NCBI RefSeq assembly: GCF_020735465.1
Contig: NZ_CP085935.1
Span: 2,356,001 to 2,420,000, forward strand
Source of the DNA: Collinsella stercoris DSM 13279
GTDB taxonomy: Bacteria; Actinomycetota; Coriobacteriia; Coriobacteriales; Coriobacteriaceae
Reading direction: 5' to 3'
DNA: 64,000 nt
Position 1 is the stretch's first letter; every line of letters starts with the position of its first letter. A program made the position numbers and the translations under genes. A model generated the notes under the pieces. It saw nothing but the letters and a program-made list of their open reading frames with translations. It was not told the origin of the DNA and ran no database searches. Shown here piece after piece: positions 39,581 to 56,821 of the stretch.

Positions 39581-39654
39581 TCGATAGATGGACCGGCAAC
39601 TCGTCCGTCTCGAAATGACGGGATTCTATGCCGCTTGAGTACGGAATGGTTGTC

Positions 39655-40833: not shown

Positions 40834-40869
40834 GTTTCGCTCCCTTACTTGAGAAAACATGAGTATATA

Positions 40870-40899
40870 CCAATGACGTCAATTAATTGACGTCATTGG
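40870..40899. promoter_or_regulatory. Perfect 30-bp palindrome with two GACGTC sites at the methyltransferase promoter
   Basis: CCAATGACGTCAATT is followed directly by its reverse complement. It contains GACGTC at 40875-40880 and 40889-40894. TATACT just downstream on the minus strand (40867-40862) is a candidate -10 box, so the palindrome covers the promoter spacer and -35 region. GACGTC fits GRCGYC, the site cut by HindVP-type enzymes. Confidence 0.75.
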
Positions 40900-40905
40900 A
40901 GGTAA

Positions 40906-42006
40906 TCATTGGCTAATGCTTATGTAGGACCCCAGCGTCTTGGCGCTTACTAAGGCACCATCAAGCCGGCGCTCGGGTTTAAGCAGGTCAATTCCACTTG
41001 GGTCGACAATTTTGCTGTAATCGACATCGGGGATACGGGGATGGAGGAAAGTGTTTCCCTGTAGGAACGGGGAGAGGCTTTCACCGCTGAAGGAGCCGGC
41101 TTTGTCGGTTTGCGCCCCATAGGTTATTTCGGAGCGGGTTTTCTCAAACGTGACGATTCCCTGTGCTGAGTAATCAAATAGCGCTTTGATAAGCCAGATG
41201 AGGGATCGGCTTGGCCTGCTGATGGGGGGCTTATCATTTCGTCGCGCAGCATCGATGAAGAGCTGGACGAACGCCATGTCGCTCCAAACGAAAGCATCGA
41301 AGCACTCTGTATCCAAGATGGAAGCCTGCCCTTTGGTTCTCCAGATGGCGGTGAGTGCAAAGGGAGCTTGACTCGGGATGCCTTTGAGGGCGATTTCCTC
41401 TGCAGCAGAAATAACACACTGAAGGTGCTTAAGCATAAAGGTCTCATTTTTCCATTCATAGTCCATAGGAAATGAAAGGTGAGATGAGATGATGTCGCCG
41501 AGTTCGTGACGCCGTTTAGGGCCGTACGTATTGGCGATTGAGAAACAAAGCTGTTCAATTGACGGAGGACGAACAACGATTTCGCAAGATTGCTGATCCT
41601 TAGCACGATGCGCGGTTGCCGAGTTGGGGATAGTGACAAGTTTTATTTCGAGTGCCCCCAGTTGCCGGTTGCTATTGATATCGCGAATGACGACATCGGA
41701 GCGAGCTGGCAAGCCGTTGGAGAAGTGCCGGTATTTGTCAAAACTTGACTCAAAAAGCCATTCAACATCATGTGCATTGCAATTAAGCAGTTGATGAAGT
41801 GGCGTTTCTGACTGGGTGGTGTGCAGTCGATTCGACGAATCTGCAGCGGCCTCGATGTACATGGGTCCATAGCCAAGGTCATCCATGTAAACGATCAGGG
41901 CCAGAGGAAATGCGTTTGTAAAAATATTCTTGCCAAACGCCTTTGGGTCGCTGCCGTCAAATCGGTGATTGGCATGTTCCAGACCATACAAATACGTGTT
42001 TGCCAC
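40906..42006 (-). CDS. HindVP-like type II restriction endonuclease
   Basis: The 366-residue protein pairs with the adjacent C5 methylase. It resembles the HindVP/HgiDI family: YGLEHANHRF, then FGKNIFTNAFPLALIVYMDD, and a PD-(D/E)xK-like core with SDVVIRD and LGALEIKLVTIP. Family members recognise GRCGYC. The start is taken as GTG 42006 because GGAG lies six bases upstream; a TTG at 42018 is also in frame. It is divergent from the lipoprotein gene. Family assignment is from remembered conserved motifs and is less sure than the methylase. Confidence 0.7.
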   Translation of the reverse strand: MANTYLYGLEHANHRFDGSDPKAFGKNIFTNAFPLALIVYMDDLGYGPMYIEAAADSSNRLHTTQSETPLHQLLNCNAHDVEWLFESSFDKYRHFSNGLPARSDVVIRDINSNRQLGALEIKLVTIPNSATAHRAKDQQSCEIVVRPPSIEQLCFSIANTYGPKRRHELGDIISSHLSFPMDYEWKNETFMLKHLQCVISAAEEIALKGIPSQAPFALTAIWRTKGQASILDTECFDAFVWSDMAFVQLFIDAARRNDKPPISRPSRSLIWLIKALFDYSAQGIVTFEKTRSEITYGAQTDKAGSFSGESLSPFLQGNTFLHPRIPDVDYSKIVDPSGIDLLKPERRLDGALVSAKTLGSYISISQ

Positions 42007-42128
42007 GGTGCGCTCCAATCAACTGTGTCCGTTAACTATAGCAGTCCCGCATGTGTTCTGAGATGGCGGAATGGTTCTCATTCGGGGAGGGGGTACACTC
42101 CGTGTAAGTCGAGGGAACGGAGGATCCC

Positions 42129-43292: not shown

Positions 43293-43448
43293 ATGGCAGA
43301 TGAATGCAAGCACGTGACGGACGCGGACGATCCGCTGCATCGGGATCCGTGCATCCGTGCGGAGAATGAGGACGATGACGGCTACGACCCGTATTCCGAC
43401 CGTCGCCCCGACCCCGAACCCCTCTTTGAGCGTGACCCGTGGGCATAG
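43293..43448 (+). CDS. Small acidic protein (51 aa), unknown
   Basis: GAGAGGGGG lies just before the ATG, and a TATAAT box is at 43256-43261. The product is rich in Asp, Glu and Pro (ENEDDDGYDPYSDRRPDPEP) with two cysteines, and its last bases overlap the start region of gluQRS. The ribosome site and promoter support it as real; the function is unknown. Confidence 0.55.
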   Translation: MADECKHVTDADDPLHRDPCIRAENEDDDGYDPYSDRRPDPEPLFERDPWA

Positions 43449-44728
43449 GGACCGTGAGGGCTGCCGACCCGACTGACGAGAGCGCTGGCTGCGTGGATGC
43501 CGTGGGCCCTGGCTACGTGGATGCCGCGGACTCCGTGGGTGCAGTCAACGTCACTGACGCTACCGACACGGTGGTGTCTTCGAGCGCTGCCAGCGCCCCC
43601 TCTCTTCACAGCAATGTGGCCCAGGTGGTGGGGCGTTTTGCCCCGTCTCCCACGGGCCGCATGCACTTGGGCAACATCCTTGCCTCCCTGCTGGCGTGGC
43701 TGTCGGTTCGCAGTCAGGGTGGCAAGCTCGTGCTGCGTATCGAGGATCTGGACGATCGGGCCCGCAGCGGACCGTGGGACGCACTGCTCATGGACGATTT
43801 GCGCTGGTTGGGCCTTGACTGGGATGAGGGTCCATATTATCAGACCGATCGGATCGATCTGTATGCCGACGCGGTGAGGCGGCTCGACGACATGGGCCTT
43901 GTGTACCCGTGCTTTTGCACGCGGGCGGAGCTCCATGCCGCCAGCGCTCCTCATGCGAGCGACGGGACACCTGTGTATGCGGGGACATGTCGTGGACTCA
44001 CGGCGGCCGAAGTCGTCGCTCGTTCCAAAGCGCGCCCACCGGCGCTGCGGCTAAAGGTTCCGCCGGTGCAGGGGATCGCGTCTTCTCGAGGACCCTTTGA
44101 ATCTTTTGCGTCCGAGAGTAAACACTCGAAGACCGAATTGACCGATTTTGGCAATTCAATGCCGCGAGAGTTAACTTTCGGGGATTGCAGCGAGCGAGGC
44201 ACCCGTGGCGCGGCGGCATCGAGGGGCGCAGCAGGTGGCGATGCGGGCGTGATGCACTTTGAGGATCGTACGTATGGCCCGCAGCGCGAGGTGCTGGCAG
44301 AGGAATGCGGCGATTTCCTCGTCCGCAGAAGCGATGGCGTGTACGCCTACCAGCTGGCCGTGGTGGTTGACGATGCCGACATGGGTGTGAACGAGGTCGT
44401 GCGCGGTTGCGACCTGCTGGGTTCGACGGCTCGCCAGATGTATCTGCAAGACCTGCTCGGCTACGCCCATCCCAGCTACGCACACGTGCCACTGCTCGTT
44501 GCCCCCGACGGTCGCCGCCTGTCCAAGCGCGATCGCGACTGTGATATGGGCGTGCTGCGCGAGCATTTTGGAACGCCCGGGGCGCTGCTGGGCCGGCTTG
44601 CGTACGTGGCGGGCTTGGTGTCCAGTCCCGAGCCGCGCACGGCCGATCAGCTCGCCGACGGGTTCAGTTGGAGCGCCGTGTGCGAGCATCGCGACAACAT
44701 CGCGGTTGAAGAGTGCTTCTTCGCCTAG
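43439..44728 (+). CDS. gluQ: Glutamyl-Q tRNA(Asp) synthetase, with an unusual internal insert
   Basis: GluQRS loads glutamate on queuosine-34 of tRNA(Asp). The catalytic domain starts near residue 65 with VGRFAPSPTGRMHLGN (HIGH-type motif). It has the zinc ligands in YPCFCTRAEL and YAGTCRG, and LSKRDRD as the KMSKS equivalent. It lacks an anticodon-binding domain, as expected. Two oddities: an N-terminal extension of ~60 low-complexity residues, and a ~60-residue insert (about 215-275) of lower GC between LRLKVP and MHFEDRTYGP. The start is uncertain (GTG 43439 or 43454). Confidence 0.85.
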   Translation: MGIGTVRAADPTDESAGCVDAVGPGYVDAADSVGAVNVTDATDTVVSSSAASAPSLHSNVAQVVGRFAPSPTGRMHLGNILASLLAWLSVRSQGGKLVLRIEDLDDRARSGPWDALLMDDLRWLGLDWDEGPYYQTDRIDLYADAVRRLDDMGLVYPCFCTRAELHAASAPHASDGTPVYAGTCRGLTAAEVVARSKARPPALRLKVPPVQGIASSRGPFESFASESKHSKTELTDFGNSMPRELTFGDCSERGTRGAAASRGAAGGDAGVMHFEDRTYGPQREVLAEECGDFLVRRSDGVYAYQLAVVVDDADMGVNEVVRGCDLLGSTARQMYLQDLLGYAHPSYAHVPLLVAPDGRRLSKRDRDCDMGVLREHFGTPGALLGRLAYVAGLVSSPEPRTADQLADGFSWSAVCEHRDNIAVEECFFA

Positions 44729-44794
44729 TTTTTGAATCTTGCACGCGCCCCTGTTCAAGGAGCGGAAAGTGCGTTATTATCGACTGGCTGTCAC

Positions 44795-44886
44795 GGAGAG
44801 CTGACCGAGAGGCCGAAGGTGCTCGCCTGCTAAGCGAGTAAGGGCCCCAAAGCCCTTCTGGGGTTCGAATCCCCAGCTCTCCGCCA
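44795..44886 (+). tRNA. tRNA-Ser (GCU)
   Basis: A 92-base class II tRNA with acceptor stem GGAGAGC/GCTCTCC, anticodon loop CTGCTAA (anticodon GCT), a long variable arm, TTCGAAT in the T loop, and encoded CCA at 44884-44886. The prophage begins directly downstream, so its 3' end is the likely attachment site. Confidence 0.95.
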
Positions 44887-44898
44887 GTGTGAATGATG

Positions 44899-44935
44899 CG
44901 TCCCCTGAGTTATCGCAGCTCAGGGGACGTTTTCT
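44899..44935 (+). terminator. Terminator downstream of tRNA-Ser
   Basis: CGTCCCCTGAG pairs with CTCAGGGGACG, followed by TTTTCT. Confidence 0.85.
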
Positions 44936-44969
44936 GTTTCCTGTAACGTCCCGTAAGTTGCCGTAACTT

Positions 44970-45015
44970 ATGCGAAAAAGTGCGAATCGCGCACCGGAAT
45001 GCGAAAAAATGCGAA
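44970..45015. repeat. Direct repeats near the attachment site (possible integrase arm sites)
   Basis: ATGCGAAAAAGTGCGAA (44970-44986) and ATGCGAAAAAATGCGAA (44999-45015) are 29 bases apart with one mismatch, close to the tRNA 3' end. Confidence 0.5.
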
Positions 45016-45040
45016 CGGAACCCGCCCTCCCGCGGCATGG

Positions 45041-45063
45041 AAAAGCCCCTCCGGGGAGGGGCT
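45041..45063 (-). terminator. Terminator of the late operon
   Basis: AGCCCCTCC/GGAGGGGCT hairpin just after the endolysin stop, with TTTT on the minus strand. Confidence 0.85.
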
Positions 45064-45068
45064 CCGTG

Positions 45069-46253
45069 CTAGTAGTAGATCTTCTGGCCCGGGTAGATGC
45101 GGCTCGGGTTTGCGATGCCGTTCTTGTTCGCGAGACCCGCCCAGTTGCCGCCCCAGCCCACCTTCTGGGCGATGCCGGACAGCGTGTCGCCGGACTTCAC
45201 GACGTAGCAGCGCGCGGTGGACGCGGTGACGCCGAGCTTCGCGTTGACCTTCGCCTGCACGGCGTCCGGGTCGTAGCCCGCGGCGGAGAGCCTGTTACGT
45301 CTGTCCTGCCCTTTGCCCCACTTGCCGGCGATGACCTCGTCGGCCACCGTGTCGACGGACTTGCCGCCGAGGCCCGCGCGGCGGTTGATCTCGGCCTGCA
45401 CCTCGTCGTAGCGCGTGCCCAGCGCGCGCTTGCGCTCGTCGCCGTTGCCCCACTTGCCCGCCTGCGCCTCGTCGGCGAGGACGGAGGTCTTGGCGGAGCA
45501 GACGTGGTTCACGGCGCCCTGAACCTCGTCGTAGCGGGCGCCGAGGTTCGCCTTGCGCGCGTCGCCGTCGCCGTACATGCCCGCCAGGGTGTTGCCCACG
45601 AGGACGTGCAGCGGCAGGGACTGGTCGGCGGGCCCGGAGGGCGCGGGCTCGACGGGCTTCGCGCCGGCGGTGAAGGACGCGAGATCGCGCTTGCCGTTCA
45701 GGGCGTTGCAGTCGACGTTGCCGCCGATGCCGGGCACGCGGCCCGTGGAGGTGAACTGCCACAGGTCGCAGTAGTGGCGGGGCGGCGTGTGGGCGGCCCC
45801 GTCGTTCACCCCGTAGGTGGGGATCCAGGTCCACTTCACCCACGGCTGGGACGCCACGGAGGCGTACTGGCCGTACAGGTGGTTGGCGATGTACACGCCG
45901 TTGTCCCCGGCCGACTGGGCGAGCGTGTTGCCCGCGGACAGGATGCCAGCGACGGACTGGCCTCCCACCTCCACGTCGAGCACGTAGCCGCGGCACGACT
46001 TCGCCCCGGCGGCCTTGGCGCGCGAGACGAGTCGGGCCGCCTCGACGGCGCCGCCGTTGCGGTAGAAGCCGTAGCAGTAGTAAGGGATGCCCAGGCGCTC
46101 GACCGCCGCGATGTTCTCGGCGAGGCGGACGTCGTGGTACGTGCCGTCCTGGACTCGGATGATCGCGAAATGGACGTTCTGCTTCACCGCGTCCCAGTCG
46201 ATGCGGCCCTGGTGCTCGGAGACGTCGATGATGGTCGGTAGGATGCCTGCCAT
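45069..46253 (-). CDS. Endolysin: GH25 muramidase with three CW_7 repeats and a LysM
   Basis: The 394-residue enzyme cleaves peptidoglycan at the end of the lytic cycle. The GH25 domain (~1-195) begins IIDVSEHQGRIDW and includes YVLDVEVGG with the catalytic acids. Three CW_7-type repeats (~205-335) follow, each with a GxxGNGxxRxxxLxxRYDEVQ-like core (AGMYGDGDARKANLGARYD, AGKWGNGDERKRALGTRYD, AGKWGKGQDRRNRL). A C-terminal LysM (YVVKSGDTLSGIAQKVGW) ends the protein. The ATG at 46253 overlaps the preceding small ORF's stop by one base. Confidence 0.93.
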   Translation of the reverse strand: MAGILPTIIDVSEHQGRIDWDAVKQNVHFAIIRVQDGTYHDVRLAENIAAVERLGIPYYCYGFYRNGGAVEAARLVSRAKAAGAKSCRGYVLDVEVGGQSVAGILSAGNTLAQSAGDNGVYIANHLYGQYASVASQPWVKWTWIPTYGVNDGAAHTPPRHYCDLWQFTSTGRVPGIGGNVDCNALNGKRDLASFTAGAKPVEPAPSGPADQSLPLHVLVGNTLAGMYGDGDARKANLGARYDEVQGAVNHVCSAKTSVLADEAQAGKWGNGDERKRALGTRYDEVQAEINRRAGLGGKSVDTVADEVIAGKWGKGQDRRNRLSAAGYDPDAVQAKVNAKLGVTASTARCYVVKSGDTLSGIAQKVGWGGNWAGLANKNGIANPSRIYPGQKIYY

Positions 46254-46354
46254 TACTCGGACGCCTCCTCGCACTTGGAGCCCATCGCGGAGTTCTCCGG
46301 CTCCTGCTCGCCCTCGCCGGGCTCGTCGAACATGGTCTTGATTTCCTCTTCCAT
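46253..46354 (-). CDS. Very small acidic phage ORF (33 aa), unknown
   Basis: ATG 46354 to TAA 46253-46255, fitted exactly between the C39-like gene stop and the endolysin start and overlapping the latter by one base. About a third of residues are Glu. It may serve only to couple translation. Confidence 0.45.
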   Translation of the reverse strand: MEEEIKTMFDEPGEGEQEPENSAMGSKCEEASE

Positions 46355-47023
46355 CTAAAACTCCTTCCAAACGGAGATGGAATACGTCCAGTAGCCGCCC
46401 GCGCCCAGGATCTCCTCCTCGGTCCAGGCGCGGGTGTTCCCGCTCGACGCGGGGTCGTTGATCCGGAGCGCGCCGCCCTCGTCCTGCCACAGCAGCACGA
46501 GGTGCCCGCCGTAGCTTGAGTCGCCCAGCCGCCCGCCACCCGCGCACCAGACCGTCCTTCCGGAGCGGGCGTCCGCTATCGCGCGCCGGATGTCCCAGTA
46601 CTGCCCGGTGGCCGAGAGCCCGAGCGACCGGGCGAAGTCGGCGAAGGCCGGCATGTAGTTGAGCCCGCCGACGGTGCACGAGTCGCCGACCTCGGCGGCG
46701 AGCCGGGCGGGCGTCCACTGCTCCCTGGTCCACCACTCGAGGCTCATGGCCGCGACCGTGAGGCCGCAGCCGTTGCCCGCGATGGTGCCGCCGTGCGCGT
46801 AGGGGGTGGACGCCCATGCGGGGTCGTCTTGGTAGTAGGAGGGCATCGAGCGCGGGCCGTACCGCTCGTGCCACAGCTCCCGCTCCCGCTCGAACTCCTC
46901 GGTCTCCTCCGCGAGGCGCTCCTCGGCCATGACCGCCGGTAGCTCCCAGGCGGCGGGAGCGGGCGCGGGCTGCGGGAAGATCGCCGCGGACAGCGCGGCC
47001 GCGAGGCTAAGCGGCGTCGCCAC
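46355..47023 (-). CDS. C39-like cysteine peptidase of the lysis module
   Basis: The 222-residue protein starts with a hydrophobic segment, then a Glu-rich helix (~30-55), then a Peptidase_C39_2-like domain: the cysteine in GTIAGNGCGLTVAAMSLEW, the histidine in GGHLVLLWQ, then INDPASS. Phage proteins of this type may be second lytic enzymes or processing peptidases. GTG 47023 lies within the end of the holin gene (17-base overlap). Confidence 0.75.
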   Translation of the reverse strand: MATPLSLAAALSAAIFPQPAPAPAAWELPAVMAEERLAEETEEFERERELWHERYGPRSMPSYYQDDPAWASTPYAHGGTIAGNGCGLTVAAMSLEWWTREQWTPARLAAEVGDSCTVGGLNYMPAFADFARSLGLSATGQYWDIRRAIADARSGRTVWCAGGGRLGDSSYGGHLVLLWQDEGGALRINDPASSGNTRAWTEEEILGAGGYWTYSISVWKEF

Positions 47024-47294
47024 GCTTCTTGGTGGCCTCCGCCGCGCCGAGGAGCACGCCGACGCCGGTGGACACGATAGCCGCCGTCTGCGCGACCTCG
47101 CCGGCGAATGGCCAGCCCCATACGGACGCGAGCCCGGTGTAGATCGCCGCGCACGCCGGGATGGCGAGCAGGCCGGCCCACTTCAGGACATCGTAGAGCC
47201 AGCCGGGCAGCCAGTATTTGACGTAGTCCTCCACCGGTGTGTCGTCCGGGATGTCGACGGGCTCGTCGCCCATCTCGATGGTCTTCTCATCCAT
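47007..47294 (-). CDS. Phage holin (LL-H type)
   Basis: The 95-residue protein has an acidic N-terminus and two membrane segments (VLKWAGLLAIPACAAIYTGLASVWG and IVSTGVGVLLGAAE), matching the LL-H/phage_holin_5 pattern in which YDVLKW precedes the first helix. It forms the membrane lesion that lets the endolysin through. Confidence 0.82.
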   Translation of the reverse strand: MDEKTIEMGDEPVDIPDDTPVEDYVKYWLPGWLYDVLKWAGLLAIPACAAIYTGLASVWGWPFAGEVAQTAAIVSTGVGVLLGAAEATKKRGDAA

Positions 47295-47308
47295 ATCCGT
47301 TGCTCCTC

Positions 47309-47650
47309 TCACGCAACGTGGAGCTCCATGAGCTCCTTGTACATGTGGGTTCCCTGGCCGTTGCCGCCGAGGGAGTGGTAGAGCTCGTAGACCTCCTGTA
47401 TGCCCTGCTTGACCTCGACGGGGCAGGGGCGCCCGCCGAGGACGTAGTGCTCGTGGAGGTCCTGGAGGCGGTAGCGCAGCAGCAGTCGGAAGATGCGCCT
47501 GTTCAGGTCGCGTTCCTCCTGCTGCTGGCTCTCGCGCCGCTCGCGCTCCTCCTTGGAGCCGCTGATCTTTCCGCCGAGCCAGCTCGCAACGCCGGTGATG
47601 CAGAGCATCGCGAGTTGCAGGACGAGCTGCCATAAAAAGTTCTCAGGCAT
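47309..47650 (-). CDS. Small membrane-anchored phage protein next to the holin
   Basis: 113 residues: one N-terminal membrane helix (LWQLVLQLAMLCITGVASWLGG), then a charged coiled coil (EERERRESQQQEERDLNRR) and a helical C-terminus. Position before the holin suggests a holin partner or antiholin; the sequence alone does not prove it. Confidence 0.6.
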   Translation of the reverse strand: MPENFLWQLVLQLAMLCITGVASWLGGKISGSKEERERRESQQQEERDLNRRIFRLLLRYRLQDLHEHYVLGGRPCPVEVKQGIQEVYELYHSLGGNGQGTHMYKELMELHVA

Positions 47651-47707
47651 GTCTCACCTCCCCCGATGTCCCGTTCGAGCGCATTGTTTCGAAGGTGTCG
47701 CCGCCTG

Positions 47708-47758
47708 AAATCCCAGACCGTTTGGGCGCGTTTTGGCGTAAAACGGTCTGGGATTTTT
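47708..47758. terminator. Bidirectional terminator before the shufflon recombinase
   Basis: AAATCCCAGACCGTTT and its exact complement AAACGGTCTGGGATTT (47741-47756) form a 16-bp stem with T-rich ends on both strands. It separates the recombinase from the lysis genes and would stop antisense transcripts from the shufflon. Confidence 0.8.
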
Positions 47759-47779
47759 CTCGTGAGAAAGGACTCGAAA

Positions 47780-48688
47780 ATGCTGCTGTCAGACGCCTGC
47801 TCCGCCTACATGGAGGCCAAGTCGAAGAAGCTCCGCCGGACCACGTTGGAGGGCTACGCCTCCGGGCTGCGGTGCCACGTGCTGCCCGCGTGGGGCGGCC
47901 GGGAGCTGGAGTCGATACGCCGCCGCGAGGTGCAGGAGTGGGTGGACTCCATCCCCACGCCCGGCGCGGCCGAGAAGGCGCTCAAGTGCCTGCGGCAGGT
48001 CATGCGCTGGGCCATCCGCTCGCTCGACCTGGAGATCTTCGACCCGACGCAGGGCGTGGAGCTGCCGCCCAAGCCCGTGTACAGGCGCGAGTCGATGGAC
48101 GCGCGCGAGGAGGCTTGCGTTCTCAGGGCGGCGGTGGGCCAGCCGTGGGAGGCCGTGGTGCTCTGCGCGGCGGCGCTCGGCCTGCGCCCGTCGGAGGCGG
48201 CGGGGCTGGACTGGGGCGACGTCGACTGGCGGAGCGGATGGGTGCACGTGCAGAGGGGCGCGCACAGCACGCAGGGCGGCACCGTGGAGTACGGCTGCAA
48301 GACGCGCCTCTCCGACCGCCACCTCAAGCTGCCCCGCTTCGCGTTGGAGCGCCTTCGCCAGCTGCGCGGGCAGCGCCGCAAGGGCCGGATGCGCGGCGAG
48401 CTGTCCCCGCGCCAGATCTACAGCAGGTTCAAGCGTTTCCTCCGCCGCATGGGGCTGGGGCGCTGCTCGATGGAGTGCCTGCGCCACACGTGGGCCACGC
48501 TCACCATCGAGGGCGGCGCGGCCCTCGCCGACGTGTCGGTCGCGCTCGGCCACACGAGCGTGAGCACGTGCCTGCAGCACTACCTCATGAGCACCAAGGC
48601 GGTGGTGCAGAGGGCGCAGGACTGCTTCGCGGACGCCATGCGGAAGGGCATGGCGGAGGTCGGCGACGCGCTACTCGATGCTGTATGA
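47780..48688 (+). CDS. Tyrosine site-specific recombinase of the tail shufflon (Rci-like)
   Basis: The 302-residue phage-integrase-family protein has a SAM-like N-terminal core-binding domain (LLSDACSAYMEAKSKKLRRTT) and a catalytic domain. Arg I is in LGLRPSEAAGL, the lysine in YGCKTRLSD, Arg II in CLRHTWATL, histidine III in LGHTSVS and nucleophile Tyr in LQHYL. The usual histidine three residues before Arg II is a glutamate here. ATG 47780 has AAAGGA upstream. The gene is on the strand opposite to the late genes, and its stop lies inside a shufflon crossover site, as with Rci next to the R64 shufflon. It is not next to the attachment site, so it is unlikely to be the prophage integrase. Confidence 0.85.
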   Translation: MLLSDACSAYMEAKSKKLRRTTLEGYASGLRCHVLPAWGGRELESIRRREVQEWVDSIPTPGAAEKALKCLRQVMRWAIRSLDLEIFDPTQGVELPPKPVYRRESMDAREEACVLRAAVGQPWEAVVLCAAALGLRPSEAAGLDWGDVDWRSGWVHVQRGAHSTQGGTVEYGCKTRLSDRHLKLPRFALERLRQLRGQRRKGRMRGELSPRQIYSRFKRFLRRMGLGRCSMECLRHTWATLTIEGGAALADVSVALGHTSVSTCLQHYLMSTKAVVQRAQDCFADAMRKGMAEVGDALLDAV

Positions 48689-48700
48689 CGGCCTTCCGTA

Positions 48701-48961
48701 TCCCAAAGACTTCTCACCGATTTGAAGGCGAACGAGGAAAAGATCTCGCTGAACGACCTGACCAAGACGGGGCTGTACGTGGCCTTCTCGCCCGACAACG
48801 CCCCGTCAACGGTCGAGGGCTCGTGGGTGACCGTCATCAACGTCATCCTGGCCAACAACGTCAACTACAGGTCGCAGATTCTCTGGAGCAATAACGCGTC
48901 TTACGGCGCTTGGCTGCGCAACTGCACAAGCGGCTCATGGGGCGAGTGGGCGAGGCTGTAG
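48701..48961 (+). CDS. Silent shufflon cassette D (inverted orientation)
   Basis: 86 codons, no start codon of its own, read on the plus strand from site 4. It encodes SQRLLTDLKANEEKISLNDL, then a pyocin-knob-like fold pattern (TKTGLYVAFSPDNAP, GSWVTVINVI, YGAWLRNCTSGSWGEWARL). A 4-by-1 inversion would fuse it directly to the constant N-terminus. Its stop faces that of cassette C across 19 bases, so C and D form one back-to-back invertible unit. Confidence 0.75.
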   Translation, partial: SQRLLTDLKANEEKISLNDLTKTGLYVAFSPDNAPSTVEGSWVTVINVILANNVNYRSQILWSNNASYGAWLRNCTSGSWGEWARL

Positions 48962-48980
48962 CGCGCATCGCGCATGGCCC

Positions 48981-49265
48981 CTATCCGCGCGTCAGCGTGA
49001 AATCGCGGAACGAGAAGACAGCAAGGGTTCCGTTCATGCCGGTCACCGATACGTCTATCGATGTATCGGCGTCCTTCTTCACGGTTATGTTGGTGCCGGA
49101 CAGCCTGCTTACGTTCGGCTCACCAGCGCCCCTGTGCTCGATTAGTGCGCAGACGCTGGACGACCCGAACAGGAGGTAAGTCTGCCATTCAGATCCGTTG
49201 ATGTGCAGCGTCTGCCCCGGGCCGAGCGGCGATGTGCGGATATGAACGCCGGGGTCGATGTGGGA
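48981..49265 (-). CDS. Silent shufflon cassette C
   Basis: 94 codons read on the minus strand from site 3, with no start codon. It encodes a beta-rich tip (SPLGPGQTLHINGSEWQTYL, then NITVKKDADTSIDVSVTG and FSFRDFTLTRG) unrelated to cassettes A, B or D. It needs two inversions (3 by 4, then 4 by 1) to be expressed by inversion alone. Confidence 0.72.
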   Translation of the reverse strand, partial: SHIDPGVHIRTSPLGPGQTLHINGSEWQTYLLFGSSSVCALIEHRGAGEPNVSRLSGTNITVKKDADTSIDVSVTGMNGTLAVFSFRDFTLTRG

Positions 49266-49277
49266 TACGGAAGGCCG

Positions 49278-49523
49278 TCATGCCCTGCTCCACACCGTTA
49301 CCTTGAGTCCGCTGACCGTGGCCCCCGGCTGACCTATCAGCCAGTACCTGAATACGGCAAAGGGCGTGACGGGCCTGACGTAGTCATACGTGGAAAGGTC
49401 GATCCTGACGACGTTCCCGAGCGAACCGCCGACGGCGCTCATGAAGGCCGGGACGGTCGCGAACGAGAAGAAGCCCTGGTCTCCAATGAGGGCGTCCCCG
49501 ATCTCGACCACGACGGGCTGGCC
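49278..49523 (-). CDS. Silent shufflon cassette B (homologue of expressed cassette A)
   Basis: 81 codons plus stop, exactly the length of cassette A, starting GQPVVVEIGDALIGDQGFF after site 2. By eye, 43 of 73 residues match cassette A across GDxLIGDQG to the C-terminus. It lies between direct repeats (sites 2 and 3). There is no ribosome site at the cassette start. Confidence 0.78.
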   Translation of the reverse strand, partial: GQPVVVEIGDALIGDQGFFSFATVPAFMSAVGGSLGNVVRIDLSTYDYVRPVTPFAVFRYWLIGQPGATVSGLKVTVWSRA

Positions 49524-49535
49524 TACGGAAGGCCC

Positions 49536-50060
49536 TTATGGTTTAACCCACACCATGAGCCTGAGGCCACTCACGGTCGTATTCGCCTGACCAATCACCC
49601 AGTAGTTAAGAATGCTGAAAGGCGAGACTGGGGTCACAGACGAGTAAGTCTCTAGGTCGATTCTGATTATGTTTTCAACCGAGCCTCCGATGGCCGTCAT
49701 GAACGCCGGGACGGTGAAAAGCTGGAAGTAGCCCTGGTCTCCGATCAGAACGTCTCCAACATCAACGCTGACGGGCTGGCCTACGGAATCCCGGAGCGCG
49801 TTCACCGCGTTGGTCAGGTCGACGAGGCGCTGCTCCACGCGCGTCATGACCTCCGCCGTCACGGGGGTCGCGGTGCTCGGCTTGTTCTTCCAAGTGGTCG
49901 TCACGTAGGCGGGCAGCTTGGAGGGCACCGCCGCGAGCGCGGAGTCAAGCTCCGGGATGATCGTCGGCACGTCCACAAGGCCCGCCTCTGGGACGACGGA
50001 CATGCCGGGGTCGACCTCGACCGCCTCGGCGCCCTGCTGCTCGCTCTTCTGCTCGTCCAT
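49536..50060 (-). CDS. Phage tail-tip/receptor-binding protein with shufflon-switched C-terminus (cassette A expressed)
   Basis: The 174-residue protein has a constant N-terminal ~92 residues (MDEQKSEQQGAEAVEVD, then a helical EVMTRVEQRLVDLTNAVNALRDSV). It crosses site 1 at the codons for Ser-Val and ends with cassette A (residues ~93-174). ATG 50060 follows GAGAGGAG. It lies directly after the baseplate-upper-like gene, where siphophages encode receptor-binding proteins. Switching the C-terminal half would change host recognition. Receptor binding is inferred from position and from the shufflon. Confidence 0.8.
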   Translation of the reverse strand: MDEQKSEQQGAEAVEVDPGMSVVPEAGLVDVPTIIPELDSALAAVPSKLPAYVTTTWKNKPSTATPVTAEVMTRVEQRLVDLTNAVNALRDSVGQPVSVDVGDVLIGDQGYFQLFTVPAFMTAIGGSVENIIRIDLETYSSVTPVSPFSILNYWVIGQANTTVSGLRLMVWVKP

Positions 50061-50073
50061 GGTTGTCTCCTCT

Positions 50074-50859
50074 CTAGAAGGTGTACTTACGCCAGTCCCC
50101 GGCCTTGCCCGGGAAGGTGTCCGCGCCGGGGTACGTGTCCGCCCCGGGGTACAGGCCGAGGCCCGGCAGGGTCGAGTCCCACTTGTTGGCGCTCTCGACG
50201 CGGTCGCCCTCGGTCTTGAGCCACATCGCGCCGTCCACGCGCTCGTCGTAGGGCGGCTCGGCGTCCTGTATGTGGTAGGGCTTGGCCAGCTTGGCGGCGG
50301 CGTTGGCCTGCTGCGCGGCGGACCTCGCGGCCGCGGCCTGTTTGGACGCCTCTGCCGCGTTGGCGTTGGCGGACTGGGCCGCGCTGTTCGCGGCGGACGC
50401 GGCGGAGTTCGCGGCGTCCCTGGACGCGAGCGTGGACCTCTTGACCGCCTGCAGCTCCTCGATGATCTCCTCGATGCGGGAGACGAACGGGCCGGACGCC
50501 CCATCGGAGCCGGTCTCCGCGTCCGCTATGACCGTGATCCAGATGTCGGGGGTGGTCTCCGTGCCCGTGCCCGCCTCGATCCGGAAGTAGGCCGTCTTGA
50601 TGACCCCGGGCACGGCGAGCGCGCGGGGGTCGAGCGTGACCGTGGCGGTGCCGCCCGAGATCGTGGCGGCCTGCTCGATGTACGTGTGGTCCGGGCGGAC
50701 GGCCAGGAAGCGCGCCGACGTCGCGCCGCTGATCGGCGCGCCGTCCTTGAGGATCGCGGCCTTTATGACGGTCCCGGTGTCCCCTGTGCGCGCGGTCACG
50801 ACCTCCGCCGCCAGAGCGACCGACTTGTCGACGTCCAGCGTCATCTCATGCGTTGCCAT
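50074..50859 (-). CDS. Phage baseplate upper protein/tail-fibre N-terminal (BppU-like)
   Basis: The 261-residue protein starts with a BppU-type beta domain (~1-120: LILKDGAP-like AAILKDGAPISGATSARFLAVRPD, then FRIEAGTGTETTPDIWITV). It continues with an Ala-rich coiled coil (~135-190, DAANSAASAANSAAQ) and ends in a Gly/Pro-rich tail with two PGADT repeats. It probably links the baseplate to the switched tip protein. Confidence 0.7.
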   Translation of the reverse strand: MATHEMTLDVDKSVALAAEVVTARTGDTGTVIKAAILKDGAPISGATSARFLAVRPDHTYIEQAATISGGTATVTLDPRALAVPGVIKTAYFRIEAGTGTETTPDIWITVIADAETGSDGASGPFVSRIEEIIEELQAVKRSTLASRDAANSAASAANSAAQSANANAAEASKQAAAARSAAQQANAAAKLAKPYHIQDAEPPYDERVDGAMWLKTEGDRVESANKWDSTLPGLGLYPGADTYPGADTFPGKAGDWRKYTF

Positions 50860-51073
50860 CTTCCGCTCCCTTCATGAGGTCCGCAGCGGCCTCGCGCAGG
50901 GTCGCGGCGGATGCCGGGTCCACGAGCTCCGAGACGGCCGAGGCGATGGCGGCGACGGTGCGCGCGAGCGCGGGGTCTTCCGCCCTCGCGCGCACGGCCA
51001 TGACACCCTCCTCGGCCCTCGGCTGTTCCTCGTGGGCTGGCTCGGGCGTCCGTTTCGGTTCCTTTTGTTCCAT
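50846..51073 (-). CDS. Small phage protein, unknown
   Basis: 75 residues, Glu/Pro-rich N-terminus and an Ala-rich helical C-terminus (LARTVAAIASAVSELVDPASAATLREAA). It overlaps the start of the BppU-like gene by 14 bases. Its location suggests a baseplate accessory role; no motif is recognised. Confidence 0.5.
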   Translation of the reverse strand: MEQKEPKRTPEPAHEEQPRAEEGVMAVRARAEDPALARTVAAIASAVSELVDPASAATLREAAADLMKGAEDGNA

Positions 51074-51081
51074 TCCTCCTC

Positions 51082-53634
51082 CTAATCTGTCGGCCAGCTG
51101 GTGCAGATGCCGTTGATGAAGTTCACGGTTCCGAACGTCCAGTGGAGTCGGCCGTCGCTGCCGTTGTAGACGGATGTCACGACTTTTCTCGAGCCGGTTA
51201 TCCCGTAGGTCCCGCCTTTGTTCGGATCGGTCCCGACGGCGAATTGCGGTGCCCTGATGCGGGCCGTCCCGGTGCTGTCTATGTCGAGCCTGTCATCGTC
51301 TATGTAGATCTGGTCATCCGGGCTGTCCCGAAGGGCCACGAAGCCCGATCCGCCGTCTTCGCTCCCGGCGGCGCGCAGGTAGAGCTCCTGCGGGGGATGG
51401 CTCATGAAGCCCTTGTAGACGGGCGGCGTGAGCCATGCCTGCCGGTAGTACCGGTTGGCGGTGAGGAACCCGTAGTCCAGCACCGAGAGTCCGCACGCCT
51501 TGGTCGCCTTCGAGGGATCGTCCGATGCGTGCAGCGCCTCCACCTCGAAGTAGTTCGCGTCCCCGTTGATGAACGACGCGCCGGGCCGCCCGTTTGCGGT
51601 CGTGCCCGTCGTGATGTAGTTGGTCGAGGACGTGCCCACCATGTTGCAGCGGAACATCGCCGTGCCGTCGGCCATGATGACGGTGCCGGCGATGATGGCG
51701 TTGTTCTTGTCGCGCACCTGGAAGCCGCTGGTCGCGTTGATGTAGACCTTGTTTCCGTTGCTGTCGGTGATGAGGATGTTGCCGCTGCGCAGGTAGACCG
51801 TGCCGCTCTCGAGGTCGAGGTAGCTGTTGTCCCCGACGAGGATGCGCCCGGTCAGCCTGTTCGCCACGATGCCGTCGCCGTTTATGGCGGTGCTGAACAC
51901 CCAGTTGCCGGACGAGTCCTTGGTGTTCGCCACGCCGATGGCACCGCCGCCGATCTTCACGCATTTCGTCGCCGAGGCGGGCTTCCTGTCGTAGACCATG
52001 ATGCCCTTGCCGGGCTCCTCGTACACCCAGCCGCCGGTCGTGTTGAGCTCGGCGTTGAGCATCCCGATGATCTGCTCCTGGATGTCGGTCGGCACCTTGT
52101 CGAGCTGCGCCTGCAGCGCGTCGATGGCGCCGGTCGCCGCGTCGAGGGACTTGTCGAGCGCGTCGGTGATGCTCAGGAGGTACTTCTTGTTCGCCTCGTC
52201 GATCGCCTTGAGCGCGGCCTCGCTCTGCTCGATGGAGGTCTGCGTGTAGAGGCGCAGCACCTCGTCGAGATTGAGGATGCCGTCGTCGGTGTACTTCTTC
52301 AGCAGCTCCTCGAGCGTCTTGTCCCCGTTCGCGGCGTACTCCTTGAGGGCGGCGTCGAGCTCCCCGGCGATCTGCTCGGTGTAGTCCTTCGCGCCCGCCA
52401 CGCCGTCGCTGGTGAACGCCTCGAGGTACTTCTTGGCGTCGGCGAGGTTCTCGCCCCACTTGGTGGAGGACGCGGCGTTCGACGCGTTGACGGCCTCGGT
52501 GATGGTCTGGCGCAGGCTGGAGGTCGCCTTGGAGATGCTCGACCTCTGCGCGGCCATGACCTCGCCGACGGTCTGGAAGTTGCCGATGGTGTAGGTCGCC
52601 CCGCCCTCGGTCAGCTGGTCCTCCTCGACCTTCGTGATGCGGGCCTGCACGCGCAGCGGCGGGTCGTACACCTTGTCGATCACGAGGACGGTGTCGCCCT
52701 CGTCCGCGCCCTCGAAGCCCTCGCCGGCGCGGGCGAGCGAGACGGCGTCCACCTCGTAGGAGGCCTTCGGCGTGCAGCGGCCCTTCAGCTCCCCCCTGGT
52801 GAGCGAGAGCAGCTCGCGCGCGTCCTCGCAGTCCTCGAACTCGACGTCGCCGAAGACATGGGTCCTGCCGCCCCTGCCGTCCGGCCTGCCCCATCGGGCG
52901 AGCGCGTCGGCGTCGCCGACCCAGTTCTTCCCGCCGTTGACGTCGCCGAAGGTCAGCTTGCGCTGGTAGCCCCCGGTGAGGTTCCCGTCCTCGTCGGTGC
53001 TCTCCGGCGCCTTGCCGTAACCGTAGAGCGCGGTCACGACGTTTCCCTCGTCCACCTCGCGCGTCACGCTCGCGAGGTCCTTGGTGTAGGTGAACCGCTT
53101 GCCGGTGTCCGCGCCCACTCGCTCGCGCAGGTGGACGCGGCGGGAGGTCACCTCGCTGCCCGACACGCCGACCTCGAACTCGAGCTCCCCGCCCCATGTG
53201 TCCGCCACGTCGTGGACGGCCTGCCACGCGTTGGTGTGGTAGAAGTTCGTCCCGCCCTGCCCGAGGTCCGCGACGGACCCGACCGTCCAGCGGCTCTCGG
53301 ACAGCGCGGACGCCATGGCCACGCTCGCCGTGGTGTTCAGCGGGCGCTTGTCCTCGAGGTAGTCGCCGGACAGCTCGACCTGCGCCGAGCTGGGGCAGTA
53401 GTAGCTGTAGACGATGCCGGCGCGTGCGCGGGTCTCGGTCACGCCGTCCACGATGTTCTCGCGCCAGCGGCCCTTCTTGTCCTGCCACACGATGCGGTCG
53501 CCCTTGTCGAGCGCGGCGAGGCACGAGATGGACAGCGCGTTCTCGCCGTTCACCTCGCGCGTGTCCACGCACTCGAAGAGCGTCTTGATGGGGCCTTTGA
53601 AGTTCTCCCATCTGTCCGTCACCCAGAGCCGCAT
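51082..53634 (-). CDS. Phage tail-associated structural protein (Tal/prophage endopeptidase tail family)
   Basis: The 850-residue protein follows the distal tail gene, as Tal does in siphophages. The N-terminal ~330 residues have the gp44/Tal-like layout (VTDRWENFKGPIKTLFECVDTREVNGEN, then WQAVHDVADTWGGELEFEV and the VTREVDEGNVVTALYGYGK segment). A long helical region (~390-520, ITEAVNASNAASSTKWGENL) and a beta-rich C-terminal region with phage-fibre repeats follow. The start overlaps the Dit stop by one base (TGATG). Confidence 0.8.
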   Translation of the reverse strand: MRLWVTDRWENFKGPIKTLFECVDTREVNGENALSISCLAALDKGDRIVWQDKKGRWRENIVDGVTETRARAGIVYSYYCPSSAQVELSGDYLEDKRPLNTTASVAMASALSESRWTVGSVADLGQGGTNFYHTNAWQAVHDVADTWGGELEFEVGVSGSEVTSRRVHLRERVGADTGKRFTYTKDLASVTREVDEGNVVTALYGYGKAPESTDEDGNLTGGYQRKLTFGDVNGGKNWVGDADALARWGRPDGRGGRTHVFGDVEFEDCEDARELLSLTRGELKGRCTPKASYEVDAVSLARAGEGFEGADEGDTVLVIDKVYDPPLRVQARITKVEEDQLTEGGATYTIGNFQTVGEVMAAQRSSISKATSSLRQTITEAVNASNAASSTKWGENLADAKKYLEAFTSDGVAGAKDYTEQIAGELDAALKEYAANGDKTLEELLKKYTDDGILNLDEVLRLYTQTSIEQSEAALKAIDEANKKYLLSITDALDKSLDAATGAIDALQAQLDKVPTDIQEQIIGMLNAELNTTGGWVYEEPGKGIMVYDRKPASATKCVKIGGGAIGVANTKDSSGNWVFSTAINGDGIVANRLTGRILVGDNSYLDLESGTVYLRSGNILITDSNGNKVYINATSGFQVRDKNNAIIAGTVIMADGTAMFRCNMVGTSSTNYITTGTTANGRPGASFINGDANYFEVEALHASDDPSKATKACGLSVLDYGFLTANRYYRQAWLTPPVYKGFMSHPPQELYLRAAGSEDGGSGFVALRDSPDDQIYIDDDRLDIDSTGTARIRAPQFAVGTDPNKGGTYGITGSRKVVTSVYNGSDGRLHWTFGTVNFINGICTSWPTD

Positions 53635-54347
53635 CAGCCTATGTGCCTTTCAGTCCATTCGATGGTTCCCGTGCCGCTGGATAGCCGCAGGTTGTTGCGC
53701 CCGGGCTGCAGCGCGAAGAAGTCGCTCTCGTAGGTCACGGCGTGGTTCTGCCCTCCGACCGTCACCTGCTCCTTGGTCATGTCGATGACCACTTCCGAGG
53801 AGGAGGTGAGCGATTCGTTGATCTGCACGAACTCTCCCGTGTCCATGTTTGTGAGCTTGAGGAAGCTCGCGGAGCCGCCCGGCTTGCACGCGATGACCGG
53901 GCGCGTCTCGCTCGTGCCGCCCACGGACAGCGCGGTGCTGTACCCCACGGCGCCGCGTCTCGTCGCGCCGTACGCTATGGGGTCGTAGGCCGTGAACTCA
54001 AGCTCCGCGCCGCCCGTGTGCCAGAGGTTGTCCAGCTCCCCGGGGGATGTCAGCACGGCCATGTAGTAGAGCCCGAGGTGCCGCTCGTCGTCCAGGTGGA
54101 GCGGGGCCTCCTTGAGGCATAGCAGCCTGGCGGCCATCGTGCGGCGGAGTGCGGCCATGTCGTCGGAGGGGCGCGCCCTCCACTCCGCCCGCACCTTGAT
54201 GACGAGCGGCTTGAGCTTGGCGCGCATGAACCGCTCGCCCGCCCGGTAGGGGATGTCCTGCGTCTCGATCGCGTACCCGGGCAGCAGCGAGCGCGTCATG
54301 AGCCTCGTGGTGAACCACGGCGAGAAGTCGAAGCCGTTGTATATCAC
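53634..54347 (-). CDS. Phage distal tail protein (Dit, siphovirus tail component)
   Basis: The 237-residue product begins VIYNGFDFSPWFTTRLMTRSLLPGYAIE and has the Dit pattern: an N-terminal belt domain (RAKLKPLVIKVRAEWRARP) and a C-terminal galectin-like half (VGGTSETRPVIACKPGGSASFLKLTN). GTG 54347 overlaps the tape-measure stop as GTGA. Confidence 0.82.
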   Translation of the reverse strand: MIYNGFDFSPWFTTRLMTRSLLPGYAIETQDIPYRAGERFMRAKLKPLVIKVRAEWRARPSDDMAALRRTMAARLLCLKEAPLHLDDERHLGLYYMAVLTSPGELDNLWHTGGAELEFTAYDPIAYGATRRGAVGYSTALSVGGTSETRPVIACKPGGSASFLKLTNMDTGEFVQINESLTSSSEVVIDMTKEQVTVGGQNHAVTYESDFFALQPGRNNLRLSSGTGTIEWTERHIG

Positions 54348-56821
54348 GCGTACGCCCCCTGCCTCAGCTGCGTCCTCTTGATCTCCTTGGCGATCTCGCG
54401 CGAGAGCTTGCGGATGTCCGCCTCCTCCCGCACGGTCGCGTACACGTTGATGGTCACATGCGTGTCGCCGCCAGCTCCGCCGCCCAGCTTCTCGAGCTGC
54501 TCCGCGATGCCCTCTGCGAGCGGCGCGGCCCCTCGCTTGTTGAACGGCACGACGCCCTCGGGGCCGTCCTCGCCGACGCCGATGACGCTCGGCCCGTTGA
54601 AGACGCCGCCCTTGGCGTACCAGCTGATGGACAGGGTCGCCGGGTTCGGTATCTTGCCGAGGAGCGGCACCTCTATGAGCGAATACCTGATATGGGGCAG
54701 CGGGATGTGCGGCCACGAGAACTTGAAGTTGAAGAACCCCTTGATTGCGTTGATGACGTTCGAGACGGTGTCCTTCGCGCCGTTTATCGCGTTGCCGATG
54801 GTGTCCCTGATGCCGTTCCAGATGTTGGACGCCGTGTTCCTGATGGAGCTGAACACGCTCGAGACCGTGTCCTTGACCCTGTTGAAGACCCCGGACACCT
54901 TGCTGAAGATTCCGTCGAGCACCCCGCCGATCGTGCTGCTTATCGCGTTCCACACCGTGGAGACCACGCCGGAGATGGTGCCGAGCACGCCGGACACGAT
55001 GCCGCTGATGGCGTTCCAGATTCCGGAGATGACGCCCTGTATGCCGCTCATGACCGAGCTGATGCCGTCCTGCATCATCGAGAAGTCGCCGGTGACGATG
55101 CCTATGATGAGTCCGAGCACGGTCTGGAATATCCCGCTGATGACGTTCCACGCGCCGTTGATGACCTCGGACACCGCGTTCATGACCGCGGTCACCGTCG
55201 TGAGGATCCCGGTGAACACGGTGGTGGCGACCTGCAGGAGCGTCGTGAGGATGGGTACCACGACGGGCAGCACCGCCTCGACCACTTGAGCCACGACCTG
55301 CGCCACGGCGCTGAAGATGCCCATGAGGCCGTCCACGAACCCCTGGAGCACGGGCTGGATGGCCGCCCAGCACTCTCCGAGCACCGCCGCGATCTGGTTC
55401 CATGCCTCGGTGACCGCGCTGCGGAAGCCCTCGTTCGTGTCCCACAGGCACTTGAACAGCGCGGCGAGCGCGCCGATGATGGCGACCACGGGCGCGGCCG
55501 CGGCGAGCACGCCGCCGAATCCGGCGGCCGCGCCGGTGCCGATGCCGCCGAGCGCGGCGGTGATCGCGGGGATGACTCCCACTAGGTTGCCGGCCACGGA
55601 CAGCACCGGGCCGATGGCGGCGAGGATGCCGGCGATGGCGAGCACGGCCATCTGGCCGCCCTCCCCGATGCCGTCGAACCACTCGCCAAACGACTTCACC
55701 ACACCCGCCACGTTGGTTGCGATGTTGAGGAGGGGCTGCCCCAGCGGCTCTATGGCGCCCTGCAGCTCGCGCATGGCGGACGCCGCCTTGCCCGCGAAGC
55801 TGTCTGAGGCGCTGTCTGCCGCCTCCTGCGCCGCCCCGGCGACGTCCCCGTACTTGTTCTCGACGCCCGCGAGGCTCGTTATCATGCCCAGCGCGTTGTC
55901 CTCGCCGAGACTCGACCACAGCGTCGATGCGAGGTTCGCCTTGTCGAACCCGTCGGGCATCTTCGCGAGTTCGCCCAGCACGGCCTCGAACACCTGCTGC
56001 CCGGTCGCGCCTCCGGTCTTCCACGCCTCGAAGAGCTGCTGGGTGGATTCGCTGAACCGCCCGATGCTCTCGTCCATGCGACCGTCAACGAGCGAGGTCT
56101 GGAACTCGTTGAGGAAGTCGTTCACCTTGTCGAGGTTGTATGCGCCGCTCTCGGTGCCCGCCTTGAGGATGGAGAAGTATTCCTGCGCCGAGAAGCCCAT
56201 CTGGGCGAAGCGCGGCCCGTATTCCGCGAGGTTGTCTCCCAGCTCGTCAGTGTAGTTGAGGCCGTCCTGCGCGCCGGCCACGAACAGGTCCATGGCGTCG
56301 GTCGCGGACAGCCCGAAGCCGTCCATGAGGGCGTTGACGCCGCGCACGCTCTCGCCGACGTCCATGTCCAGGGTGTCGGAGAGCGTGAGCACGGACTGCG
56401 TGATGTAGGAGAGGTCGGCGTCGTCAAGGTCCCCGATACTCTGCCTGACCTTGACGAGGGCGTCGTCGACCAGGTCGAGCGACTCGCCGAACCCGTCCTC
56501 GTAGATTGCCTCGCCCACGTCGCCCAGGCGCTCCGCCTCCTCGGCGGTGAGCCCGAGGGCGGACTGTATGCGCGCGGTGGCCTGCTCGTAGCTCGACGCG
56601 GTGCCGAACGCGGCCGTCCCAGCCGCCACGATCGGCGCGGTGAGGCCGACGGTGCAGGCGGTGCCCGCCGACTTGAGGGAGCCGGACAGCTTCTGCGCCG
56701 CCGCGTCCCCCTCCTTGATGCCCTCCCAGGTGACCTCCTTGAGGGAGCTGTTGAGCTTCCCGACCTGCTTCGGGATGTTCGCGGTGTCGAGCACCGCCTT
56801 GATGACTACGGAGCCGTCCAT
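54344..56821 (-). CDS. Phage tail tape measure protein
   Basis: The 825-residue protein sets tail length. The N-terminal TMP core (TAAFGTASSYEQATARIQSALGLT, then ALMDGFGLSATDAMDLFVAGAQDG) is followed by a hydrophobic middle (~380-520). A repeat-rich C-terminal half follows in which VxNAISGIxxxVLGxISGV-like units alternate, and GGVFNGPSVIGVGEDGPEGVVPF closes it, as in many TMPs. ATG 56821 with GAGG five bases upstream is preferred to GTG 56827. Confidence 0.9.
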   Translation of the reverse strand: MDGSVVIKAVLDTANIPKQVGKLNSSLKEVTWEGIKEGDAAAQKLSGSLKSAGTACTVGLTAPIVAAGTAAFGTASSYEQATARIQSALGLTAEEAERLGDVGEAIYEDGFGESLDLVDDALVKVRQSIGDLDDADLSYITQSVLTLSDTLDMDVGESVRGVNALMDGFGLSATDAMDLFVAGAQDGLNYTDELGDNLAEYGPRFAQMGFSAQEYFSILKAGTESGAYNLDKVNDFLNEFQTSLVDGRMDESIGRFSESTQQLFEAWKTGGATGQQVFEAVLGELAKMPDGFDKANLASTLWSSLGEDNALGMITSLAGVENKYGDVAGAAQEAADSASDSFAGKAASAMRELQGAIEPLGQPLLNIATNVAGVVKSFGEWFDGIGEGGQMAVLAIAGILAAIGPVLSVAGNLVGVIPAITAALGGIGTGAAAGFGGVLAAAAPVVAIIGALAALFKCLWDTNEGFRSAVTEAWNQIAAVLGECWAAIQPVLQGFVDGLMGIFSAVAQVVAQVVEAVLPVVVPILTTLLQVATTVFTGILTTVTAVMNAVSEVINGAWNVISGIFQTVLGLIIGIVTGDFSMMQDGISSVMSGIQGVISGIWNAISGIVSGVLGTISGVVSTVWNAISSTIGGVLDGIFSKVSGVFNRVKDTVSSVFSSIRNTASNIWNGIRDTIGNAINGAKDTVSNVINAIKGFFNFKFSWPHIPLPHIRYSLIEVPLLGKIPNPATLSISWYAKGGVFNGPSVIGVGEDGPEGVVPFNKRGAAPLAEGIAEQLEKLGGGAGGDTHVTINVYATVREEADIRKLSREIAKEIKRTQLRQGAYA

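Follow-up and report, generated by a model that had tools for sequence, protein, structure and literature searches.

A compact four-head Rin-type shufflon in a prophage of a probable Collinsella host, with an inversion bounded by its recombination cores

Organisation of the locus

The stretch of DNA analysed here (the ‘window’; 64,000 nucleotides, positions 2,356,001–2,420,000 on one 2,460,750-bp contig) carries prophage late genes from about 45 kb onward, and within these we find a compact array in which a predicted tail-tip gene has a constant part served by four alternative C-terminal cassettes. Reading upwards in coordinate, the array is entered through a tyrosine recombinase gene on the plus strand (47780–48688; 302 amino acids; matching Pfam PF00589 and Phage_int_SAM_3), likely a Rin-type invertase, for which an alternative in-frame start at 47666 would give a protein of 340 residues. 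The gene ends just 5 bp short of the first recombination core; this key neighbour was absent from the original prediction for this DNA.

Beyond it lie four copies of the heptamer TTCCGTA, recovered by motif scan exactly where they had been predicted and with the predicted polarity, three facing one way and one the other: the core on the recombinase side, which opens cassette D (48694–48700, plus strand), and those of cassette C (49266–49272), cassette B (49524–49530) and cassette A (49782–49788), all on the minus strand; the last also closes the constant part. A fifth copy sits far from the array (39640–39646). The heptamer by itself is not significant, with five copies in the window against 3.45 expected and at least five in 29 of 100 shuffled sequences; it is the arrangement of the cores that lies beyond chance.

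Behind all four cores the same frame, one base into the core, is open and runs to a stop of its own. Cassette A (49536–49787, minus strand; 83 codons plus stop) is the one expressed in the window state, whilst B (49278–49529, minus strand; 83 codons plus stop), C (48981–49271, minus strand; 96 codons plus stop) and D (48695–48961, plus strand; 88 codons plus stop) are silent. The lengths originally given, 261 bp (D), 285 bp (C) and 246 bp for each of the others, hold when counted after the two codons of the core. The constant part (49789–50060, minus strand) is an open reading frame of 91 residues ending in a predicted helix (residues 69–93 of the A form), and together with A it makes a predicted tail-tip protein of 174 amino acids (49536–50060, minus strand), which weakly matches a PHROG family of minor tail proteins (E 5e-5) and has a predicted beta domain at residues 95–172. 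Computed fusions of the constant part to D, C, B and A come to 179, 187, 174 and 174 residues respectively. A and B are identical at 48 of 81 residues, bearing out the predicted figure of about 59%; C and D, which had been called unrelated folds, do fall into separate sequence families on C-terminal clustering, which bears out that claim in part.

Since C and D share one segment, their tails facing each other, the four cores bound only three segments. The C and D sites, which have 21 bp in common, carry the arm TCCCA to the right of the core, whereas the A and B sites carry GGCCAGCCC; this second arm, at 49524–49530 and 49782–49788, departs from the NCCC found as a rule, although recombination has taken place at the A site in the sequence described below. 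With every core in the same codon phase, any inversion between oppositely oriented cores would yield an open fusion, and simulated inversions of this kind reach 12 arrangements, of which four express A, four B, two C and two D. Three core pairs in the window stand in direct orientation, and between these deletion would be expected.

An inversion bounded by the outermost cores

A contig in the IMG/VR database, IMGVR_UViG_642979321_000003 (12,206 bp; our loci L023 and L066), aligns over its full length with positions 43293–55498 of the window and shows no mismatch outside a single inverted segment of 1,095 bp, which runs from outermost core to outermost core (48694–49788). The two breakpoints have the 7-bp core in common and not one base beyond it on either side, placing strand exchange inside those 7 bp; exchange within so short a stretch is expected for a tyrosine recombinase. 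In the window the constant part is joined to A; in the contig it is joined to D, with A now behind the recombinase gene. The lack of mismatches suggests that contig and window genome derive from one strain.

It had been proposed that serial inversions could set any cassette behind the constant part, an idea that would have fallen had related sequences never been rearranged at the cores. One sequence is rearranged exactly there, so that objection fails; the A and D states are seen directly and the simulation expresses all four cassettes, whilst no sequence found has this locus in its B or C state, though both are probably reached.

Alternatively, window and contig might differ through faulty assembly or a rearrangement by chance, the cassettes being tail-gene copies in decay. 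In favour of this, only the one rearranged sibling was found for the window locus, and draft contigs are open to misassembly. Breakpoints that share 7 bp offer too little to mislead an assembler, however; each of the four cassettes has an open frame in the common phase; and core-bounded inversions recur in three further close pairs of related loci, namely L086/L087 (flanks 99.8–100% identical), L110/L111 (100%) and L113/L114 (97.8–99.2%). We regard this explanation as very improbable. Pairs with more distant flanks are likewise rearranged at their cores (for example L065/L117 and L116/L121), and in some pairs the number of cores differs, as with six in L116 and two in L118. L113 and L114 are array loci that lie together on a contig of 83.7 kb (IMGVR_UViG_2877182016_000001), with the same segment oppositely oriented between cores. 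We also observe that two draft contigs (L054, positions 1–14; L060, positions 1–12) begin within a few bases of the recombinase-side core, as if mixed orientations had broken the assembly.

Phase, cores and arms across related loci

Searching with the window recombinase matched 14 of 197 genomes at E <= 1e-30, its own genome included. Scanning named genomes located 16 loci, of which 11 showed 35–46% identity (10 of these coriobacterial by title), and viral contigs supplied 60, the weakest being ordinary recombinases. We examined 64 sequences and retained 48 loci, after setting aside six in which no core was found by the pattern used, where other core sequences are possible (L067, from Collinsella aerofaciens, L090, L106, L107, L127 and L129), and ten others: the second state of the window (L023), three duplicates (L061, L101, L104), four cut by a contig end (L068, L072, L076, L096) and two with one stray core (L108, L112). 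Because closely related loci remain in the set, along with some stray cores, counts over the 48 loci are not independent.

The regularities of the window are nonetheless those of the set. Of 248 cores, stray copies inside arrays included, 241 open at least 40 codons in the frame one base into the core, compared with 102 in frame 0 and 42 in frame 2; random positions in the same arrays do so in 3,583 of 9,400 cases. Both core orientations are present in 47 of the 48 loci. The 7-bp core is uniform within each array but varies between arrays, being TTCCGTA in 39 loci, TTCGCTG in three, TTCCTTG in two, TTCCTTA in two, and TTCCATA and TTCGGTA in one each. A left arm GGGA, mirroring the common right arm TCCC, stands at the site taken as constant in 42 of the 48 loci; this site was defined by the longest upstream open frame, a rule that seems to have picked the wrong site in some loci, L050, L085, L070 and L099 among them.

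L097 and L102 have recombinases with 96.5% identity over 283 residues, and yet the adjoining arrays differ in their core, which is TTCGCTG throughout the first and TTCCGTA throughout the second; because of this it seems that the enzyme does not read the core, which needs only to match between the two partner sites.

Two arrays in the collection are unusual in themselves. L077 (6938–9278, the same as L061 9510–11850) holds 12 TTCCTTG cores, one set against the other eleven, with frames of 44–87 codons in one phase; and in L119 (5588–6860), of the bifidophage type, five of six cassettes are short in the usual phase (30–64 codons), so that this array is perhaps decaying or error-ridden.

The neighbouring recombinase

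The protein encoded beside the array matches the integrase profile phrog_1 from profile position 165 of 611, starting at residue 2 of the protein; because the match begins so far in, the region for an arm-binding domain is missing. Across 14 aligned recombinases R136, K174, R235, H258 and Y268 are invariant, and these we take to be the catalytic positions. The protein is 28–29% identical to the separate integrase that the prophage carries beside its attachment (att) repeat, and 33–34% identical to the array recombinases of Bifidobacterium phage PMBT6 and phage ctl617. In a tree of 52 recombinases the 34 array-linked sequences (the window and 33 others) fall on one side of a branch (SH-like approximate likelihood-ratio support, SH-aLRT, 91, not starred), and the prophage's integrase lies outside them. 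The 18 controls include this integrase, ordinary integrases without an array check of their own and L063 (31% identity), in which no array was found and which served just as a control. Within the array-linked group 25 coriobacterial-type sequences form one side (92), whilst nine like that of PMBT6 do not; this is a quick tree, in which the control branches are long.

Could the inversion be real and the neighbouring gene merely a passenger, with the prophage integrase, a host Xer protein or a recombinase acting in trans performing the flip? The genome itself holds five further tyrosine recombinase matches, and a second bifidophage inversion locus is described without an adjoining recombinase (PMC6109161). 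Recombinases of the window's kind, however, stand beside repeated cores in the 48 loci retained, and their group in the tree is set apart from the 18 controls, the prophage integrase among them. An enzyme from elsewhere is thus improbable in our estimation.

We therefore read the locus as a Rin-type shufflon, and give this reading a probability of roughly 0.93: a core-bounded block of 1,095 bp sets A or D behind the constant part, and the neighbouring recombinase most likely flips it, changing the head with which the phage would bind its host. B and C would also be brought behind the constant part by further inversions, such that all four heads could be used.

Head domains and what they may bind

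As the core of the A form lies at the border between predicted helical stem and predicted head domain, inversion would exchange whole heads. With the tail-tip protein as query we recovered 81 database proteins, headed by that of the window itself, and a pattern match finds the junction motif in all 81. Two, with C-termini under 25 residues, were left out of clustering at 30% identity and 60% coverage; the remaining 79, together with the four window cassettes, form 26 C-terminal families upon three N-terminal groups (64, 14 and 3). A shared N-terminus is built into this set, since the N-terminus is what found the hits; the diversity of heads is the result. The A/B-like, C-like and D-like heads make up three of the 26 families, leaving 23 further ones, some of them single proteins. 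Since relatives of the constant part are found ahead of A/B-like, C-like and D-like heads, and the A-to-D inversion falls exactly at the cores, the central claim of the original prediction, that a tail-tip shufflon offers a choice of four C-terminal cassettes, is upheld. None of the 81 proteins combines the window's exact constant part with another head, a search from which records near the window were possibly left out.

On the minus strand the order of genes is tape measure protein, Tal-like tail endopeptidase (51082–53634; Pfam PF06605), minor tail protein (50074–50859; phrog_3639, E 1.8e-12) and then the tail-tip gene. This position, together with weak fold matches, points to a receptor-binding protein whose heads would decide attachment to the host. 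The array might instead switch a tail part with another role, such as binding gut glycans or escaping antibodies or host defences. The tail-tip gene does, however, follow the endopeptidase and minor tail genes, and in a second look at the D head by structure search the 11 best matches, though weak, are all to phage or pyocin fibre, tailspike or receptor-binding chains; a role other than host attachment is in our view unlikely. If the heads do bind receptors, the likely effect of the switch is that the virus changes which cells it attaches to.

Heads common to diverged loci

Heads also recur between loci. Among those whose recombinases are 60–80% identical we count 110 full-length head matches, which are not mutually independent, 62 of them at 90% DNA identity or more; below 60% recombinase identity no head matches were found, and head sharing, if real, is for that reason confined to groups. 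The clearest case is L102/L103, in which four heads are common at 100% whilst the recombinases are 68% identical; here the arrays and downstream DNA are 99.9% identical (L102 6884–11749; L103 7978–12843), and on its recombinase side L103 carries three additional cores. This pair would be accounted for equally well if the recombinase gene had been replaced.

A bolder idea, which we consider possible but doubtful, is that gut actinobacteria have a shared library of phage heads, each head opened by a 7-bp core in a single codon phase, with the recombinase flipping heads inside one phage and also moving them in frame between phages in an integron-like manner, the arms being read and the core acting as a password that need only agree between partners and so splits the library into exchange groups. 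If true, the present locus would be one outlet of that library.

Comparison with known inversion systems

An R64-type shufflon likewise has a tyrosine recombinase, several segments, a constant N-terminus with swappable C-termini and a short core, though a different one; it is borne on a plasmid, and what it varies is the adhesin at the end of a conjugative pilus. In the window the neighbours are phage tail genes in place of a conjugative pilus. A receptor-binding switch in a Coriobacteriia prophage, proposed as a different use of this design, has precedents, Rin shufflons being already known in prophages (PMC6109161, PMC8778435); with such arrays reported from Bifidobacterium and Eggerthella lenta, Rin and not R64 is the closest relative, and the locus joins systems already described, the phage use of the design not being new.

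In prophages of Bifidobacterium breve and B. longum, an arm-less tyrosine invertase is described beside a constant N-terminus and variable C-terminal receptor-binding cassettes, each preceded by a short asymmetric repeat, and inversion is reported both from genome comparisons and from reads of virion DNA (Mavrich et al. 2018, PMC6109161). The window shares the defining features: an arm-less tyrosine recombinase beside the array and apart from the integrase, a constant N-terminus with alternative C-termini, and inversion at a repeat. The Bifidobacterium repeat as printed is TTCCCTAACCC, 11 bp in length and one core base off the window's TTCCGTA (PMC6109161); it occurs in none of the 141 loci fetched, and Bifidobacterium phage PMBT6 carries TTCCGTAACCC. 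On this count TTCCCTAACCC defines the Bifidobacterium loci and not the wider Rin kind.

Closer still are the clade 1 prophages of Eggerthella lenta, also of the class Coriobacteriia, for which the corresponding account (2022, PMC8778435) gives a Rin shufflon with the crossover repeat ttccgtat, a tyrosine recombinase distinct from the integrase, and, beside it, a constant gene and small variable genes often bearing H-type lectin domains. Class, gene layout and a recombinase apart from the integrase are common to both, and TTCCGTAT at the window's C and D sites is exactly that repeat; the A and B sites read TTCCGTAG, with G as the eighth base, unlike the E. lenta repeat. The E. lenta constant gene is described as much larger than the 91-residue constant part of the window (PMC8778435). 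The host also differs, being here probably Collinsella, and for the window locus inversion is shown between otherwise identical sequences.

Min, Cin and Gin, by comparison, are serine recombinases, whose inversions swap the C-terminal part of a phage tail fibre and change host range (PMC6109161); the window's enzyme, a PF00589 tyrosine recombinase, stands outside that group.

To these systems the present analysis adds an inversion that falls exactly at the cores in two sequences with no other difference, a single codon phase and a GGGA arm over 48 loci, near-identical recombinases beside different cores, and heads common to phages with diverged recombinases. We found no paper in the open-licence literature with both Collinsella and a shufflon, and none on inversion of a Collinsella prophage tail by a recombinase or naming a Coriobacteri- phage with an invertible tail and recombinase. 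What the window offers is a four-head Rin shufflon in a small locus of a probable Collinsella, seen in two orientations in sequences that otherwise agree.

Prophage setting and other features

Proteins with a related constant part have Collinsella stercoris (two) and Collinsella intestinalis (one) as named sources among the 81, and the host of the locus is probably Collinsella. An att-like repeat of 35 bp, the 3′ end of a tRNA-Ser gene, stands at 44860–44894 on the plus strand, with a second copy at 82278–82312 on the window's scale, which adjoins the gene of the separate integrase; this recurrence suggests a prophage about 37.4 kb long. A third att-like tRNA-Ser copy lies 190 bp past the second (82468–82528 on the same scale; L049 18468–18528), has a further shared stretch of 22 bp and is perhaps the trace of another insertion. 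Upstream of the recombinase gene we note a 16-bp inverted repeat from a repeat search (47708–47756), perhaps a terminator. Finally, outside the prophage (39655–42018), an open reading frame that by eye resembles a DNA cytosine methyltransferase adjoins one of 370 amino acids; the two are perhaps a restriction-modification pair, judged likewise by eye from the reading frames.
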